Source: Lachnospiraceae bacterium (GTDB lineage Bacteria > Bacillota > Clostridia > Lachnospirales > Lachnospiraceae). From it: DNA of 44,989 bases. The stretch lies in contig JAGAQZ010000050.1 of the NCBI GenBank assembly GCA_017622505.1, positions 1 to 44,989 on the forward strand. The letters run 5' to 3'. Under the pieces are notes generated by a model. That model worked only from the letters and a program-made list of their open reading frames with translations. It had not been told where the DNA came from and ran no database searches. Both the position numbers and the translations under genes were made by a program. This document shows, piece after piece, positions 5,422-37,997 of this stretch (position 1 is its first letter; each line of letters starts with the position of its first letter).

Positions 5422-7128
5422 TTAGTCATTCTTCGGCAATACGAAAGAACTCTTAAGTGATACAATTCTGTTAAATACAGGCTCACCTTCCTTGGAATCC
5501 TTGTAGTCCACACAGAAGAAACCGTTTCTTACAAACTGGAAACTTTCATATGCCTTTGCATCTTTTAATGCAGGTTCCAAATAAGCTGTAATTACAGTCT
5601 TGGAATTCGGATTCACGTTAATGCTTCCGTCTTCCTCGTTGTATACACCCTTCTCTTCATCAATGATGTTTTCAAAGAGACGAACTTCTGCCTGAATTGC
5701 TGTAGATGCATTTACCCAATGAATGGTACCTTTAACCTTACGCGCATTGAAACCTGAACCTGACTTTGTCTCAGGATCGTAGGTACAGTGAATTTCAACT
5801 ACCTTACCGGTCTCATCCTTCACGCAGCCTGTACAGGTTACAAAATATGCATTCATCAAACGAACTTCATTTCCGGGGAACAATCTGAAATACTTCTTAG
5901 GCGGTTCCTCCATAAAGTCTTCTCTTTCAATCCAAAGTTCCTTACCGAAGGGTAACTGTCTGCTTCCCAAAGACTCATTTTCCAAGTTATTGGGTGCATC
6001 AAGCATTTCGATTTTACCATCTTCCCAGTTATCGATTACTAATTTCACCGGGTCTAAAATCGCCATCATACGGGGGCGTTTCAACTTCAAATCCTCACGG
6101 ATACAATACTCAAGCATTGCCATATCTGCAGTTGACTGTGCCTTAGACACACCACAAAGTTCTACGAACTTCTTAATGGACTCAGGTGTATAACCTCTTC
6201 TGCGAAGCGCAGCTACGGATACCAAACGGGGATCATCCCAACCATCTGCAATACCGTCTTCTACCAACTTCTTGATATATCTTTTACCGGTAACAACGTT
6301 CTTTAAATAAAGCTTTGCAAACTCAATCTGCTTGGGCGGGTGAGGATATTCCAACTCGGTTACAACCCAATCATATAAGGGTCTGTGGTCCTCAAATTCC
6401 AAGGTACAGATAGAATGTGTAATACCTTCAATGGCATCCTCGATGGGATGTGCAAAATCGTACATAGGATAAATACACCAGGTATCTCCGGTACGATGAT
6501 GTGTCATATGTGCCACACGATAAATAACGGGGTCTCTCATGTTCATATTGGGTGATGCCATATCAATTCTTGCACGAAGAACCTTTTCACCATCCTTGTA
6601 AACACCGTTTTTCATATTCTCAAAGAGTTCCAAGTTTTCTTCTACGCTTCTGCTTGCATAAGGATCTTCTTTACCGGGCTCGGTAAGAGTTCCTCTGTAC
6701 TCTCTGATTTCATCTGCGGTAAGATCTGATACATAAGCCTTACCTTTCTTAATCAATTTTACGGCAGCTTCATACATCTGACCAAAGTAATCCGATGCAA
6801 AGAATAATCTGTCATCCCACTTTGCACCAAGCCACTTAATGTCTTCCAACTGCGAATTTACGAACTCCACCTTCTCCTTTGTAGGATTGGTATCATCAAA
6901 TCGCATATTAAACAAGCCGTTATACTTCTCAGCCAAACCATAATTCAAAAGAATACTTTTGGCATGTCCGATATGCAAATAACCGTTAGGCTCCGGCGGA
7001 AAACGTGTATGCACGGTCTCATAAACACCTTCCTCCAAGTCCTTGTCTATAATCTGCTCAATAAAATTGCGGGAAACAACTTCCTTTTCTTCATTTTCCA
7101 CACCGTTAAGCATTTCATTCTTTTCCAT
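5422..7128 (-). CDS. glnS: Glutamine--tRNA ligase
   Basis: The 568-residue class I synthetase charges tRNA-Gln directly with glutamine. It shows [15 protein letters not shown] (HIGH at 52-55), [26 protein letters not shown] and [26 protein letters not shown], followed by the two C-terminal anticodon-binding barrels. The KMSKS-equivalent loop reads VVTGKR (278-283), where E. coli has VMSKR: the Lys-Arg is kept, the Met-Ser is not. Many Firmicutes lack GlnRS and use GatCAB, so this gene implies a direct route, possibly acquired in the lineage's past. The start is the ATG at 7128 with GGAG 8 bases upstream; a GTG at 7164 has no spacing to its Shine-Dalgarno. No T-box is visible in the short leader; a TATTAT -10 box lies at 7194-7189. 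Confidence 0.95.
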
Positions 7129-7252
7129 AACTCTAACTCCATTCCAAAAGGGCCTACTTTCCACCCTTTCTCAATTCTCAACATTTCCATAATATCACAA
7201 ACCCCTAAAATAATAAAGACTTCCCTCAAAATATTTTTCAACCTATATTGGC

Positions 7253-7755
7253 AACTTTTCAAGCCTGCTTTTGTCAGCCGGAAAGCGGGGGAGGGGCTTT
7301 TCATAAAGAGGATTTGCTTTTTGTACGTTTCCTAGAAATTGCATATGTTTTCTTTTTTGCGATGAAGCCACTGCTTTTTCGTTGTTTGAACCTATTGTTT
7401 GCATTGAACAAGCGGGGTCGCTTTCGACTTCATAAATGCGGATTTTCTAAAAGTGTACGGCAGACAATGCTTTTAATGCCGGGCTTCGACAAAAACTCGC
7501 TTCGCTCAAACAATTGTCTTTCGCCCGGCAATCGGGATAAGGCATTGTCTGCTACGTACACTAAGAAAATCTCGCATTTACTTGCAAAGAAACCTGCCCC
7601 GGCTTGTCAATGCAAACAATGGGTGAGTTTAGAAAAGGCAGTGGCAATCAGACATCGTAAAAAGAAACATATAGCAATTTGTTGAAACGTACAATTGCAA
7701 GACGATTATGAAAAGCCCCTCCCCCGCTACCAACTCAAAAAAGCTTTGAAAAGTT
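7253..7755. repeat. 503-bp imperfect palindrome (giant hairpin) between divergent genes
   Basis: The stretch between glnS and the DHH gene (7129-7854) has no convincing gene. Most of it is one long inverted repeat centred near 7504. Paired segments, outside to inside: 7253-7262 with 7746-7755 (10 bp); 7284-7306 with 7706-7728 (23 bp perfect, including GCGGGGGAGGGGC); 7323-7331 with 7684-7692; 7336-7342 with 7674-7680; 7344-7351 with 7666-7673; 7368-7380 with 7632-7645; 7394-7406 with 7608-7620; 7434-7448 with 7564-7579; 7452-7471 with 7542-7562; 7478-7484 with 7523-7529; 7488-7492 with 7514-7518. Because both flanking genes point away, it is not a terminator. It could be a non-autonomous mobile element, a structured RNA, or a cruciform. 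Confidence 0.85.
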
Positions 7756-7777
7756 ACAAATATAGTGGGGATATGCC

Positions 7778-7806
7778 TTGCGTGTTGGGTGGAAATGAAG
7801 TATAAT
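7778..7806 (+). promoter_or_regulatory. Predicted sigma-A promoter of the DHH gene
   Basis: TTGCGT (7778-7783) and a perfect TATAAT (7801-7806) are separated by 17 bases. The promoter begins 22 bases after the end of the giant palindrome, so transcription of the DHH gene does not cross the hairpin. Confidence 0.75.
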
Positions 7807-7854
7807 TTTAAATGGTATAGCTTTTATAAAATGATAGCTAAGGGGGACTTAAAT

Positions 7855-8772
7855 ATGAGACTTATTACACGTTCAGACTTTGACGGTCTGGCTTGTGGCG
7901 CTCTTTTAAAAGAGGCCGGAATTATCGATTCCTGGAAGTTTGCGCATCCGAAGGATTTGCAGGACGGCTTGGTAGAAGTTACCGAAAATGACTGCCTTGC
8001 AAACGTACCTTACGTAGAAGGTTGCGGTTTATGGTTCGACCATCATTCCAGCGAACATGAAAGAAATGAATTAGCAGGTAAGTATAAGGGTGAAAGCCGT
8101 ATTACACCGTCTTGCGCACGTATAATTTATGACTACTACGGTGGCAAGGAACGCTTCTCTCACTTTGACGATATGATGGAAGCCGTTGATAAGGTTGACT
8201 CCGGAAATCTTACCATTGATGATATCCAGAATCCTAAGGGATGGGTTTTAATCGGTTTCTTAATGGATCCCAGAACAGGTCTCGGACGTTGGCGTGAGTT
8301 CACCATTTCCAACTATCAGTTAATGGAAAAGTTAATCGAAGCCTGCCGTACCATGACTACCGAAGAAATTCTTGCACTTCCCGATGTAAAAGAAAGAATT
8401 GATGTATACTTTGAACAGACGGATAAATTCAAAGAAATGGTATCCGCACACACTAAAGTAATCGGCGATTTAATCGTTTCCGATTTACGTGGCGTAGACC
8501 CCATTTATTCCGGCAACCGTTTTATGATTTACAGTATGTATCCCGAACAGAACATTTCAATGTGGATTGTTAACGGTAAGGGCGGCAAAGGTTGTTCTTG
8601 TGCAGTAGGCTACAGCATCTTAAACAGAACTTCTAACGTAAACGTAGGAAGCCTTATGTTGAAATACGGCGGTGGCGGTCACAAGGCCGTAGGAACCTGC
8701 CAGTTTGCAGATGAAGTAATGGACGAGAACATCAAGGCGTTGATTGATGATATCGTAAATTACAAAGAATAA
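7855..8772 (+). CDS. DHH-family phosphoesterase (exopolyphosphatase-like)
   Basis: The 305-residue protein has the DHH superfamily motifs: ITRSDFDGLACGALL (residues 4-18), FDHHSSEHE (about 62-70), the VDKVDSGNL motif, and a C-terminal DHHA1-type glycine-rich motif (KYGGGGHKAVGTCQF). These proteins use two manganese ions to cut phosphoester or phosphoanhydride bonds; substrates range from oligonucleotides and cyclic dinucleotides to polyphosphate, and this subfamily's substrate is not evident. The start is the ATG at 7855, with AGGGGGA 7 bases upstream; an in-frame extension to 7765 would run through the promoter. It is monocistronic, closed by the hairpin at 8804-8883. Confidence 0.85.
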   Translation: MRLITRSDFDGLACGALLKEAGIIDSWKFAHPKDLQDGLVEVTENDCLANVPYVEGCGLWFDHHSSEHERNELAGKYKGESRITPSCARIIYDYYGGKERFSHFDDMMEAVDKVDSGNLTIDDIQNPKGWVLIGFLMDPRTGLGRWREFTISNYQLMEKLIEACRTMTTEEILALPDVKERIDVYFEQTDKFKEMVSAHTKVIGDLIVSDLRGVDPIYSGNRFMIYSMYPEQNISMWIVNGKGGKGCSCAVGYSILNRTSNVNVGSLMLKYGGGGHKAVGTCQFADEVMDENIKALIDDIVNYKE

Positions 8773-35508: not shown

Positions 35509-37770
35509 CTACTCATAAAAGTCTACCGCAAACAGTTCTTCTCCGGCCTCGATTTTACCGGTTTTTAACACTCTGATTTCCTGGTTTTCATTCATTTCGG
35601 ACAAAATCACCGGCGACATTGTGCTTGGTGCATTGGCCTGAATATATGACAAGGCGACCCGCATCAGAAGTTCACCTTTCTTGACCTTTTGTCCGCTTTC
35701 CACCAGCACTTCAAAGCCCTGACCGTTTAGTTTGACCGTATCAATACCGATGTGAAGAAGCAAAGGAATCCCTGTATAGGATAAAAATCCAATTGCATGT
35801 TTGGTGTCATAAACGAACACCACTTCCCCATCTTCCGGTGCATAAATATTGCCGTCAGAAGGCGTAATCGCCATACCGTCTCCTACAATTTTATTTGCAA
35901 AAGCTTCATCCGGCACTTCCGATAATTCCGTGGCAATACCGGTAATCGGACTGCAAACCACAACGGATCTGGTAATTCTTCGTTCCTTACCGCCACCCAT
36001 TTTCTCATCTGCATTTTGATCCGCATAAATCACTTTGCTGCATCCCTTACTCTTTTCTTTTATATTCTGTCGTTTGGCATTCATCGCTTCTTTTTCAAGT
36101 TCTTCACTGTGGCGCACTTCGATGTGTTCTCCTTCCGGAAACTGCTCAATATATTCTTCCAAATCCGACTTAATTACGCTTACCCGGGGCCCGTAAATAA
36201 TCTGCACGCCATTTCCCTTATGAATGACGCCCGCTGCCCCTGTCTGTCTTAACAATGCATCATTTACCTTATCAGCCGTATGCACGGTGCAGCGAAGTCT
36301 GGTAGCACAACAATCGATGTCTACGATATTTTTTACACCGCCAAGCCCCAGGCAAATATCTCTTGAAAGCGAAGATGCAGCAGAATGCGAAATTCCTCTA
36401 TCGGCTGTATTCTCACCGTCACGGACCTCACCTCTATGCTTTGCCTTGCGTTCGTCCACATCTTTTCTTGTATATAATTTAATATCATCCTCGACTTCAC
36501 CTCTGCCGGGCGTTTTATAATTCAGCTTTTGAATCAGAAAACGGAATACGAAATAATACACGACAAAGTAAAAGATTCCCACTACCACAATCCAAATCCA
36601 GTTTGTCTTGGCATTTCCCTGCAAAATACCAAATAAAAATAAATCAATCAAGCCACCCGAGAAGGTCATTCCGACACCAACCTCAAGCACATGCATCAGC
36701 ATATACGCCAAACCGGCAAAAACACAGTGAATGCCATACAATAAAGGTGCCACAAACAAAAACGTAAATTCCAAGGGTTCCGTAATACCGGTCAACATAG
36801 ACGTTAAGGCTGCCGATAACAGTAAGCCCCCGACCTTTTGCCGGTTTTCAGGACGCGCCGTATGATACATAGCAAGTGCCGCCCCCGGCAAACCAAAAAT
36901 CATCAGCGGAAACTTTCCTGACATAAAACGTGTAGCAGACACTGCAAACTTCGTCACATTGGACGACGCAAGCTGGGCAAAATAAATATTCTGCGCACCT
37001 TCAATAAGTTGCCCGTCAATTTCCATAGTACCGCCAAGGGCAGTCTGCCAAAACGGCAGGTAAAAGACATGATGCAAACCAAAAGGAATTAGCAATCGTT
37101 CCATTAGACCATAAATCCAAGTCCCAAAATATCCCGAACGCAACACCAAATCACCCACCGCGTAAATCCCGCTTTGAATAAAGGGCCAAACAAAAAACAT
37201 TAAAATTCCCACAAGGGTGTACACAAGCGCACTGATAATTGGTACAAACCGTGTACCACCGAAGAAAGATAAAACCTGCGGCAATTCTATTTTATAAAAG
37301 CGGTTATGAAGTGCCGCAACGCCGAGACCTACAAGAATACCGCCAAATACACCCATCTGTAACGACGTAATACCGCATACCGATGCCGTCGCTCCGCTTA
37401 ACATATTTTCAGGTCCGCCGTTTATGGTAATCAATGCACCAATAGATGCGTGCATAATCAGAAAAGCAATCGCCGCCGCAAGTGCCGCAACTGCCTTCTC
37501 CTGCTTTGCCATACCGATGGCTACGCCGATTGCAAATATAATCGGCAGATTGGCAAATACAATATCTCCTGCATCACGCATAACAATAAAGATTGCGTTT
37601 AATATGGTTCCCGGCCCCATAATACCAACCAGTCCATAGGTCTCCAAGGTTGTATAATTGCTAAAAGACCCACCAATTCCAAGCAATAAGCCTGCTGCCG
37701 GCAAAATCGCAATCGGAAGCATAAAAGAACGACCCACGCGCTGCAATACGCCGAAAATTTTATCTTTCAT
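35509..37770 (-). CDS. PTS permease EIICBA, glucose/GlcNAc family
   Basis: The 753-residue protein imports and phosphorylates a sugar at PEP's expense. The EIIC domain (about 1-420, GRSFMLPIAILPAAGLLLGIGG to GITEPLEFTFLFVAPLLYG) is followed by EIIB with NIVDIDCCATRLRC (the phosphocysteine in CATRLR), and a C-terminal EIIA of the Crr type (SPITGIATELSEVPDEAFA, TKHAIGF and LLLHIGIDTVKLNGQGF with the phosphohistidine). The linker between IIC and IIB is long and charged. Sugar specificity cannot be told. The start at 37770 has AGGAG 7 bases before; no LicT-type RNA antiterminator or PTS regulator is near. It lies between spoVAE and an EamA transporter. Confidence 0.92.
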   Translation of the reverse strand: MKDKIFGVLQRVGRSFMLPIAILPAAGLLLGIGGSFSNYTTLETYGLVGIMGPGTILNAIFIVMRDAGDIVFANLPIIFAIGVAIGMAKQEKAVAALAAAIAFLIMHASIGALITINGGPENMLSGATASVCGITSLQMGVFGGILVGLGVAALHNRFYKIELPQVLSFFGGTRFVPIISALVYTLVGILMFFVWPFIQSGIYAVGDLVLRSGYFGTWIYGLMERLLIPFGLHHVFYLPFWQTALGGTMEIDGQLIEGAQNIYFAQLASSNVTKFAVSATRFMSGKFPLMIFGLPGAALAMYHTARPENRQKVGGLLLSAALTSMLTGITEPLEFTFLFVAPLLYGIHCVFAGLAYMLMHVLEVGVGMTFSGGLIDLFLFGILQGNAKTNWIWIVVVGIFYFVVYYFVFRFLIQKLNYKTPGRGEVEDDIKLYTRKDVDERKAKHRGEVRDGENTADRGISHSAASSLSRDICLGLGGVKNIVDIDCCATRLRCTVHTADKVNDALLRQTGAAGVIHKGNGVQIIYGPRVSVIKSDLEEYIEQFPEGEHIEVRHSEELEKEAMNAKRQNIKEKSKGCSKVIYADQNADEKMGGGKERRITRSVVVCSPITGIATELSEVPDEAFANKIVGDGMAITPSDGNIYAPEDGEVVFVYDTKHAIGFLSYTGIPLLLHIGIDTVKLNGQGFEVLVESGQKVKKGELLMRVALSYIQANAPSTMSPVILSEMNENQEIRVLKTGKIEAGEELFAVDFYE

Positions 37771-37839
37771 AATCAATCTCCTGTTCTGTGTTTTTCAGTG
37801 TGCTGTATAGGAACAAAACACATTTTTTAGAAATAAAAA

Positions 37840-37873
37840 AGTACATACCCACCTTGCAAGGTGAATATGTACT
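37840..37873 (-). terminator. Terminator between the EamA gene and the PTS gene
   Basis: AGTACATA (37840-37847) pairs with TATGTACT (37866-37873), with CACCTT/AAGGTG inside. On the minus strand it is followed by TTTTTTATTT. It lies 131 bases past the EamA stop and 70 bases before the PTS start, so it could also act as an attenuator of the PTS gene. Confidence 0.72.
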
Positions 37874-37997
37874 CTCTTTAATCTATGCATATGTTTTTTC
37901 ACAAAAAGTAAGATTTCATATACCAATCATTTATTCTGAAAATATTATTTTACATTCCATATTTTATGTCATTTTTCCCGAATTATTCCTATATGAT

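Follow-up and report, generated by a model that had tools for sequence, protein, structure and literature searches.

A 523-bp palindrome beside glnS in a Lachnospiraceae genome carries a hairpin tip motif common to many bacteria

The 44,989-nucleotide stretch of Lachnospiraceae DNA analysed here (hereafter the window) contains a 523-bp imperfect palindrome (7243-7765, centre ~7504) in the intergenic region between two diverging genes, which raises the question of what such an element is and how its arms stay complementary. The original prediction placed an imperfect palindrome at 7253-7755 and proposed a non-autonomous transposon, a long structured RNA or a cruciform as its nature. Comparison of the palindrome with the same locus in related genomes, and of its centre with hairpins in other bacteria, provides a context for choosing among these readings.

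The inverted repeat is real, and is seen alike in the arm pairs, in the match of the element to its own complement and in its predicted fold. When the 523-bp element is compared with its own locus by BLAST, a minus-strand match extends across positions 1-523 with 70% identity, and a repeat finder reports five arm pairs within the element (Table 1) out of 20 inverted repeats across the window (at least 20 nt, with arms no more than 1500 apart). The innermost pair spans 33 nt at 7441-7473 and 7539-7571 and is 73% identical. Both the centre near 7504 and the perfect 23-bp pair, found at 7284-7306 and 7706-7728, are as originally described; the palindrome does occupy 7253-7755, but it reaches ~10 bp further out on each side. 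From the alignment with G005 and G027, the 23-bp arm at 7284-7306 is likely the edge of a segment inverted between species, as discussed below. The inner core bears a resemblance, and only that, to the internal loop, CTTAG../..TTAG, seen in other Lachnospiraceae members. The minimum-energy fold of the 523 nt contains 198 pairs, and when 7253-7755 is folded as RNA the plus strand gives -247.9 kcal/mol (z -19.0) and the minus strand -246.5 kcal/mol (z -21.5), with none of 100 shuffles as good on either strand. A separate 58-bp overlapping palindrome with 32-nt arms (78%) lies at 37828-37885, just upstream of a minus-strand PTS EIICBA gene (35509-37776); no relation to the 7243-7765 element was seen.

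Table 1. Coordinates of the palindrome, its paired segments and its neighbours in the window
Feature	Position	Strand	Basis or remark
Whole imperfect palindrome (element)	7243..7765	.	Self-inverse BLAST, arm pairs, fold z
Outermost left arm (CTATATTGGCAACTTTTC...)	7243..7271	+	29 nt, partner 7737-7765, 79%
Outermost right arm (...GAAAAGTTACAAATATAG)	7737..7765	+	Repeat finder, partner 7243-7271
23-bp perfect arm, left	7284..7306	+	Repeat finder, partner 7706-7728; G005/G027 alignment
23-bp perfect arm, right	7706..7728	+	Repeat finder, partner 7284-7306
Paired segment, left	7321..7356	+	Partner 7659-7694, 72%
Paired segment, right	7659..7694	+	Partner 7321-7356
Paired segment, left	7390..7425	+	Partner 7589-7624, 78%
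Paired segment, right	7589..7624	+	Partner 7390-7425
Inner core, minus strand GATTTTCTTAGTGTACG ... tip ... CGTACACTTTTAGAAAATC	7440..7572	-	By-eye comparison with L062, L070 and L079
Tip (apical) motif TGTTTGAGCGAAGCGAGTT	7494..7512	-	Common to many bacteria
GCGAAGC, GNA-loop mini-hairpin at the very tip	7499..7505	-	Sequence; G005 has GCGTAGC
glnS, glutamine--tRNA ligase, diverging neighbour	5422..7128	-	ATG 7126-7128, derived from the 726-nt intergenic distance
Conserved 305-aa protein, diverging neighbour	7855..8772	+	No Pfam/NCBIfam match
Candidate -10 box (TATAAT) of the right-hand gene, beyond the element	7801..7806	+	Aligns with TATAAT in four element-free relatives

Several simple explanations can be set aside. 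No credible gene lies within the palindrome, as had been predicted: a 145-aa ORF at 7248-7685 matches neither Pfam nor NCBIfam, and indels of 1, 1, 2 and 1 nt disrupt its frame in genome G005, so that protein-coding content is rejected. An intrinsic terminator, with a short GC-rich stem and a T-run at a gene 3' end, was rejected at the outset and is rejected here, since the flanking genes diverge and no terminator-like site was found in 7050-7900. A known RNA family is likewise discounted, with no match to the Rfam 15 covariance models at gathering score anywhere in the window, and four Rfam matches at 20 loci of other members of the class described below, none of them over the hairpins.

The protein encoded to the right of the palindrome is 85-98% identical among its matches in the genus, is present in 22 of the 31 genus genomes, and contains DFDG and DHH motifs by eye, from which we take it to be DHH-phosphoesterase-like. 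The promoters of the two genes had been placed outside the palindrome, and this is plausible given the conserved TATAAT upstream of the right-hand gene; however, that box is missing from the hits of a promoter consensus scan, which reports weak hits inside the element. We searched the element DNA in 99 genomes, consisting of its own and 98 others (30 of them congeners), scoring six candidates in each. Among the matches listed, only those in G005 (92%) and G027 (85%, in two pieces) are more than short, and both copies lie between the same two genes as the window copy, such that the element is present at this locus in two of the 30 congeners. The original prediction was to be doubted if copies, conservation at the locus and a folding signal were all lacking; conservation and folding are both present. 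Copies in other genomes are represented by these two orthologous sites but otherwise, among the matches listed from its own genome and the 98 others, by segments of no more than 54 nt with E values no better than 1.7e-4, among which the strongest lies at the tip. BLAST of distant sequences gave no phage or plasmid copies of the window element, and weak BLAST matches outside query positions 248-270 appear by eye to be unrelated coding or chance similarity.

The distance between the two start codons is 726 nt in the window genome (G000), 724 nt in G005 and 630 nt in G027, whose copy has lost ~106 nt of one arm. The same gene pair is present without the element in G030, G012, G018, G022 and G011, with 161-294 nt between the start codons, and the remaining genomes listed with the right-hand protein have different sequence upstream of it. 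Because only G005 and G027 share the element and five congeners with the gene pair lack it, its gain or retention is confined to one small clade. The intergenic flanks of the five element-free congeners are too diverged for such a comparison, and neither a clean empty site nor a target duplication was found.

Alignment of the three copies shows that the palindrome changes in a paired fashion. Over the securely aligned part of its interior, G000 shares 92.7% identity with G005 (413 columns) and 85.8% with G027 (309 columns); for third codon positions in the right-hand gene the corresponding values are 63% and 62%, and for the non-element intergenic flanks (left/right) 90.4%/80.7% and 83.3%/76.7%. 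Both partners have changed at three pairs in G005, compared to 0.31 expected (P 0.002), and at six in G027, compared to 0.83 expected (none of 20,000 shuffles), with pairing kept at three of the three and five of the six; the structure used is that of G000, which gives a slight bias toward kept pairs. Single changes at pairs number nine in G005 (one keeps pairing) and three in G027 (two keep pairing). The differences between the arms had been described as drift in paired positions, and the description is apt in that paired positions co-change more often than by chance. Both selection on the fold and conversion between the arms predict such co-change.

Selection on the fold is central to the main rival explanation, in which the palindrome is a structured non-coding RNA, or a domain of one, that is kept in place by selection, with the strand bearing the tip motif transcribed, a tip that binds protein or RNA, and stems that covary. 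The two-sided compensatory changes agree with this, as does the identity of the interior to that of G005 compared with the third codon positions of the neighbouring gene; the lost arm segment in G027 and the lack of an Rfam family, both in the window and over the hairpins of 20 loci, do not. The behaviour of related hairpins, described below, adds to both sides, and on balance we consider a structured RNA unlikely.

A more complex relationship with other bacteria emerges at the centre of the palindrome. Query positions 248-270 of the element matched several unrelated genomes, and several of these matches sat in the middle of palindromes with arms different from those of the window copy, which itself has a GAGCGNAGCGAG tip at the centre of its complementary arms. 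A 17-mer, corresponding to TGTTTGAGCGAAGCGAGTT without its first two bases, has a single site in its own genome with up to two mismatches, at the palindrome centre, and is present exactly in 19 of 299 family genomes with up to 10 sites per genome. At all 30 of the 17-mer loci that were fetched the flanks pair better than in the best of 20 left-arm shuffles, if only weakly at two of them (L057, at a contig end, and L075). The 19-mer is present in at least 117 stretches (one genome per species), and its hosts among the matches listed are Lachnospiraceae, other Clostridia, Bacteroidota, Burkholderiales, Haemophilus parainfluenzae, Halanaerobium and CPR bacteria.

The two site sets together hold at least 150 distinct sites with the exact 19-mer, identical sites having been merged on 69 nt; some genome entries are in the set twice (for example G027/L188 and G148/L125), and 18 sites with fewer than 60 nt on a side were dropped. 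Among 132 tested sites, 112 have an arm score greater than 10, which is the 99th percentile of 441 random control positions in the same loci, and 20 fall at or below this threshold; one control scored 46, and 29 sites exceed every control. The 19-mer thus marks hairpin tips and is not a chance repeat. Viral contigs gave 54 motif hits, of which only five score above 10 among the matches listed, and in these contigs (L201-L254) the 19-mer lies mostly in two fixed, repeated contexts without a hairpin.

When one mismatch is allowed in 18 genomes, 26 of 46 one-mismatch sites vary at the same base to give GAGCGNAGCGAGTT, where N is A, T, C or G (a subset folded), and the tip variants fit GAGCGNAGCGAG with its GNA mini-hairpin. 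GCGNAGC is described as a very stable GNA mini-hairpin of DNA (PMC4686876), and the GA/GA beside the loop could stack as sheared pairs. The motif strand may work single-stranded. At 107-112 of the 112 sites RNA folding favours the motif strand over its complement, and when the loop is masked by A it still does so at 96, 89 and 99 sites, with the reverse at 13, 20 and 12 (for 30, 45 and 60 nt of flank, respectively); both results also favour a structured RNA. A single-stranded intermediate predicts strand asymmetry, and the evidence for this is mixed: G.T mismatches outnumber A.C mismatches by 165 to 112 over the 112 sites, with 56 versus 53 in the 29 strongest, and local GC skew divides the sites 103 versus 110 in partly overlapping sets. 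A replication-strand bias is therefore rejected overall, although the window-genus set, which includes several orthologues of one locus, divides 2 versus 14. MAFFT and RNAalifold on 60 of 81 prepared sites aligned only the invariant loop, and as the stems begin at slightly different offsets we make no claim of covariation across phyla.

The cores of these hairpins are alike within one genome, and between genera little is shared beyond the tip, apart from a few extra bases around it in several Lachnospiraceae genera (CGAGGACTG...CCGCAG). G148 has 23 exact TGAGCGNAGCGAGTT sites, and its 22 fetched copies have two-sided compensatory changes at 22 of 35 predicted pairs, a further point in favour of a structured RNA; in the G148 genus the motif is present in five of 10 genomes, with from 1 to 23 sites each. 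G365, G291 and G182 each have their own, different core. The tip is found in 11 of the 31 genomes of the window genus, where G006 and G026 carry cores of ~140-160 bp that are 86-97% alike between unrelated flanks, together with one further G026 copy that is 78-82% alike. A single core occupies a locus common to G010, G013, G023, G026, G006 and G007, with similar cores elsewhere in G006 and G026; the G023 locus includes a frame, read by eye, that we take to be mnmE-like. At the 29 strongest sites the arms range from 78 to 160 nt, the latter being the longest examined. In Bacteroidota and Haemophilus a further short hairpin, TTACTTTT...AAAAGTAACCAAAA or similar, flanks the tip hairpins (L147:3150-3850, L154:2250-2850, L155:4600-4790 and L159:1860-2060), and at L147 it is mirrored on both sides, as if in a larger composite element.

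Dispersal is seen in two sister species, G377 and G379. With a 411-bp copy from G377 as the query, there are 37 match pieces in G377 itself, 30 in G379, none in G376, G380 and G381, and two in G378 that cover the tip only; these are match pieces and not copies, as one copy can give several, or self-inverse matches. The flanks differ among the copies compared, and no consistent target duplication was seen in them by eye. Cores at differing loci constitute dispersal, albeit with no clean empty site caught, and dispersal in some genomes argues against an RNA held in place. We note that G377:C229:9182-9431 and G377:C199:4186-4403 are apparent deletion derivatives in which element positions 1-200 are joined to 331-383, with one inner arm gone in a manner similar to the loss in G027. 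At L397, L404 and L406 in these two species, both sides of the element are bounded, by eye, by inward-facing terminator-like stems, and the outer bounding stretches of L397 are exact inverted copies over 32 nt.

The L397 structure, with its terminator-like stem included in the inverted copies, fits a second rival explanation in which nothing is mobile or selected, and a small hairpin simply triggers fold-back or template-switch synthesis of inverted local copies whose arms are then kept alike by conversion. The arms are indeed site-specific and near-perfect in some copies, such as the 317-nt palindrome of L007/L058, and stable GNA mini-hairpins (PMC4686876) could prime the fold-back. However, a 19-mer conserved across phyla exceeds the needs of a mini-hairpin, cores at different loci within one genome share ~140-400 bp, and the five element-free congeners, with just 161-294 nt between their genes, gave no more than short element matches among those listed. 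Passive growth of a palindrome ranks second to a structured RNA among the rivals, and we think it improbable.

Placement and partner genes were examined at 89 sites with enough flank, using simple ORF calling and leaving out 28 sites in ORFs of at least 90 aa, many of which are perhaps spurious. The 61 intergenic sites comprise 45 between tandem genes, 12 between converging genes and four between diverging genes, compared to 91, 33 and 47, respectively, of 171 motif-free gaps of 150-900 nt in the same loci. Diverging regions are thus avoided, and the window copy is an exception. The motif lies ~100 nt from a stop codon at many of the sites examined, which puts the foot of the hairpin directly behind the stop codon. 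At the tandem sites the motif strand is opposite to the genes in 25 and the same as the genes in 20, and this near-random orientation argues against a structured RNA. A Y1 transposase (PF01797) is encoded in 12 of 18 motif genomes, with one match in G000 and none in G005 or G027, and the motif is absent, with up to three mismatches, from all 29 transposase loci fetched; a RAYT/Y1 transposase is therefore rejected as the partner. Among 91 neighbouring ORFs (40 loci in four genomes) no Pfam family is found in more than two members and no transposase family is shared.

A feature that the original prediction did not include, like the tip motif itself, is inversion in place. The window palindrome is reversed with respect to its flanking genes relative to both G005 and G027, whose copies share the same orientation; for G005 and the window, the flanks match in one orientation and the element gives its better match in the opposite one (92% versus 67%). 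A second case is seen between G045 and G375, in which a flank aligns on the minus strand at 86% and the hairpin on the plus strand at 90% (72.5% in the other orientation), and at another orthologous pair from these genomes (L361/L362) the orientation is unchanged. The G045/G375 hairpin resembles the tip-bearing L058 hairpin at 76-78%, and its tip in G375 is altered to TTTGAGC / GCGAGTT around a 9-nt loop, with two further changes in the G045 copy. In these L058-related copies (L357:1486-1686 in G375 and L360:1489-1689 in G045) the 9-nt loop replaces the GNA triloop, and TTTGAGC is changed in G045; the hairpin is kept with an altered tip, and the tip can therefore change while the hairpin stays. 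G045 also contains a second long palindrome (L354:1230-1607, ~378 nt, 80% self-complementary) ~70 nt from the hairpin that lies on the side of what is presumably purC, a name taken from a frame read by eye.

The simplest cause of the inversions would be recombination or template switching between the arms, and two independent insertions in opposite orientations could mimic the same outcome. The window copy is best read as old, single and flipped, probably by recombination between its own arms. An orientation that differs between species at two loci is a further difficulty for a structured RNA. It also invites comparison with a site-specific switch whose inversion would control the two diverging genes, a reading that fits the position of the window copy but is very improbable given that no recombinase was found among 20 window ORFs scanned, that the neighbours are glnS and a conserved protein, that the candidate promoter lies outside the element with only weak consensus hits inside it, that inversion changes little in an interior that is itself palindromic, and that the second inversion is at another gene pair.

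The best explanation, which we hold to be somewhat more probable than not, is that the palindrome belongs, as an old member present in single copy, to a widespread class of non-coding repeats of the foldback kind, apparently mobile and tagged at the tip. On the best reading the class is REP- or MITE-like, and is defined by a conserved tip motif, TGTTTGAGCGNAGCGAGTT, carried on arms that are free to vary while remaining complementary. Among the natures first proposed, the transposon-like one fits best, in that this is a dispersed repeat defined by its tip; the window copy itself is at most putatively mobile. This explanation accounts for the association of tip and hairpin, the families within genomes, the dispersal in two sister species, the covariation and the inverted orientation at two loci. 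A plausible route is that the motif strand, once single-stranded, would fold into a long hairpin that ends in the very stable GNA mini-hairpin, where a putative host or mobile-element factor acting in trans could recognise it and spread copies to intergenic sites, mostly at gene ends, presumably by transposition. After insertion the two arms may recombine or template-switch with each other, and such exchange would keep them complementary, let the palindrome absorb neighbouring sequence and flip it in place; pairing may further be maintained through selection on the hairpin. More tentatively, the class may be a pan-bacterial selfish hairpin in which the conserved 19-nt tip is the sole sequence needed by a shared putative machinery, present in Bacillota, Bacteroidota, Pseudomonadota and CPR bacteria, that would spread, extend and flip palindromes whatever the sequence of their arms. 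This is doubtful, and if true what is inherited would be structure and not sequence.

Comparison with known systems places this class among the small dispersed repeats. MITEs and foldback (snap-back) elements are short, non-coding, multi-copy elements with inverted repeats, and relatives with the same tip in G377 and G379 are similar in having several copies, the window copy being single. The tip-tagged elements differ from them in being most conserved at the centre, and not at the ends, and the loci compared have shown neither a terminal repeat in common nor a target duplication or parent transposase. In integron attC sites the base, with its core sites, is conserved and the tip varies, whereas the tip-tagged elements conserve the tip and vary the base. 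The likeness to attC (for which see PMC11641012) lies in variable hairpins, which in attC are recognised as folded DNA and in the tip-tagged class would be. Palindromic candidate structured RNAs of the human microbiome are likewise palindromic structured candidates from gut bacteria, and as described they appear to differ, 230 of the 250 palindromic candidates (among 3161) being predicted terminators and the four named examples spanning 80-132 bp and occurring mostly or entirely in Bacteroidetes (PMC8040213).

The nearest described class is that of REPs and BIMEs, palindromes of 20-40 bp whose foot carries a GTAG or CGTC tag, with the GTAG superfamily tied to RAYT transposases (PMC3733652; for the transposase side, PMC6006769). 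As described, most of them lie downstream of coding regions, where the flanking genes are unidirectional or convergent; they are often paired in opposite orientations, and in some families are species-specific (PMC3733652). The dispersed intergenic palindromes reported here are alike in their bias toward gene 3' ends and their paired orientation, but they are tagged at the tip, are ~140-520 bp in length with arms free to vary, and have no RAYT alongside; at 523 bp the window copy falls outside the unit size of REPs, and by eye neither GTAG nor CGTC is present at its two feet on either strand. GTAG does occur beside the stem in some Bacteroidota members (for example L155, L105 and L154), for which a link to GTAG REPs is conceivable. 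Literature searches by motif letters and by words found, among the papers listed, no description of a tip-tagged class, which is apparently undescribed.

Bacterial genomes are shaped by small palindromic repeats, among which the superfamilies described in the work cited here are tagged at the foot, one of them being tied to a single type of transposase (PMC3733652). A class whose tag sits at the tip, and whose arms vary freely yet remain paired, points to a different mechanism of recognition, and one that may span phyla. Bacterial chromosomes are usually considered to destabilise long palindromes, and the arms and flips of these elements provide a natural record of how such palindromes persist, grow and invert within them.
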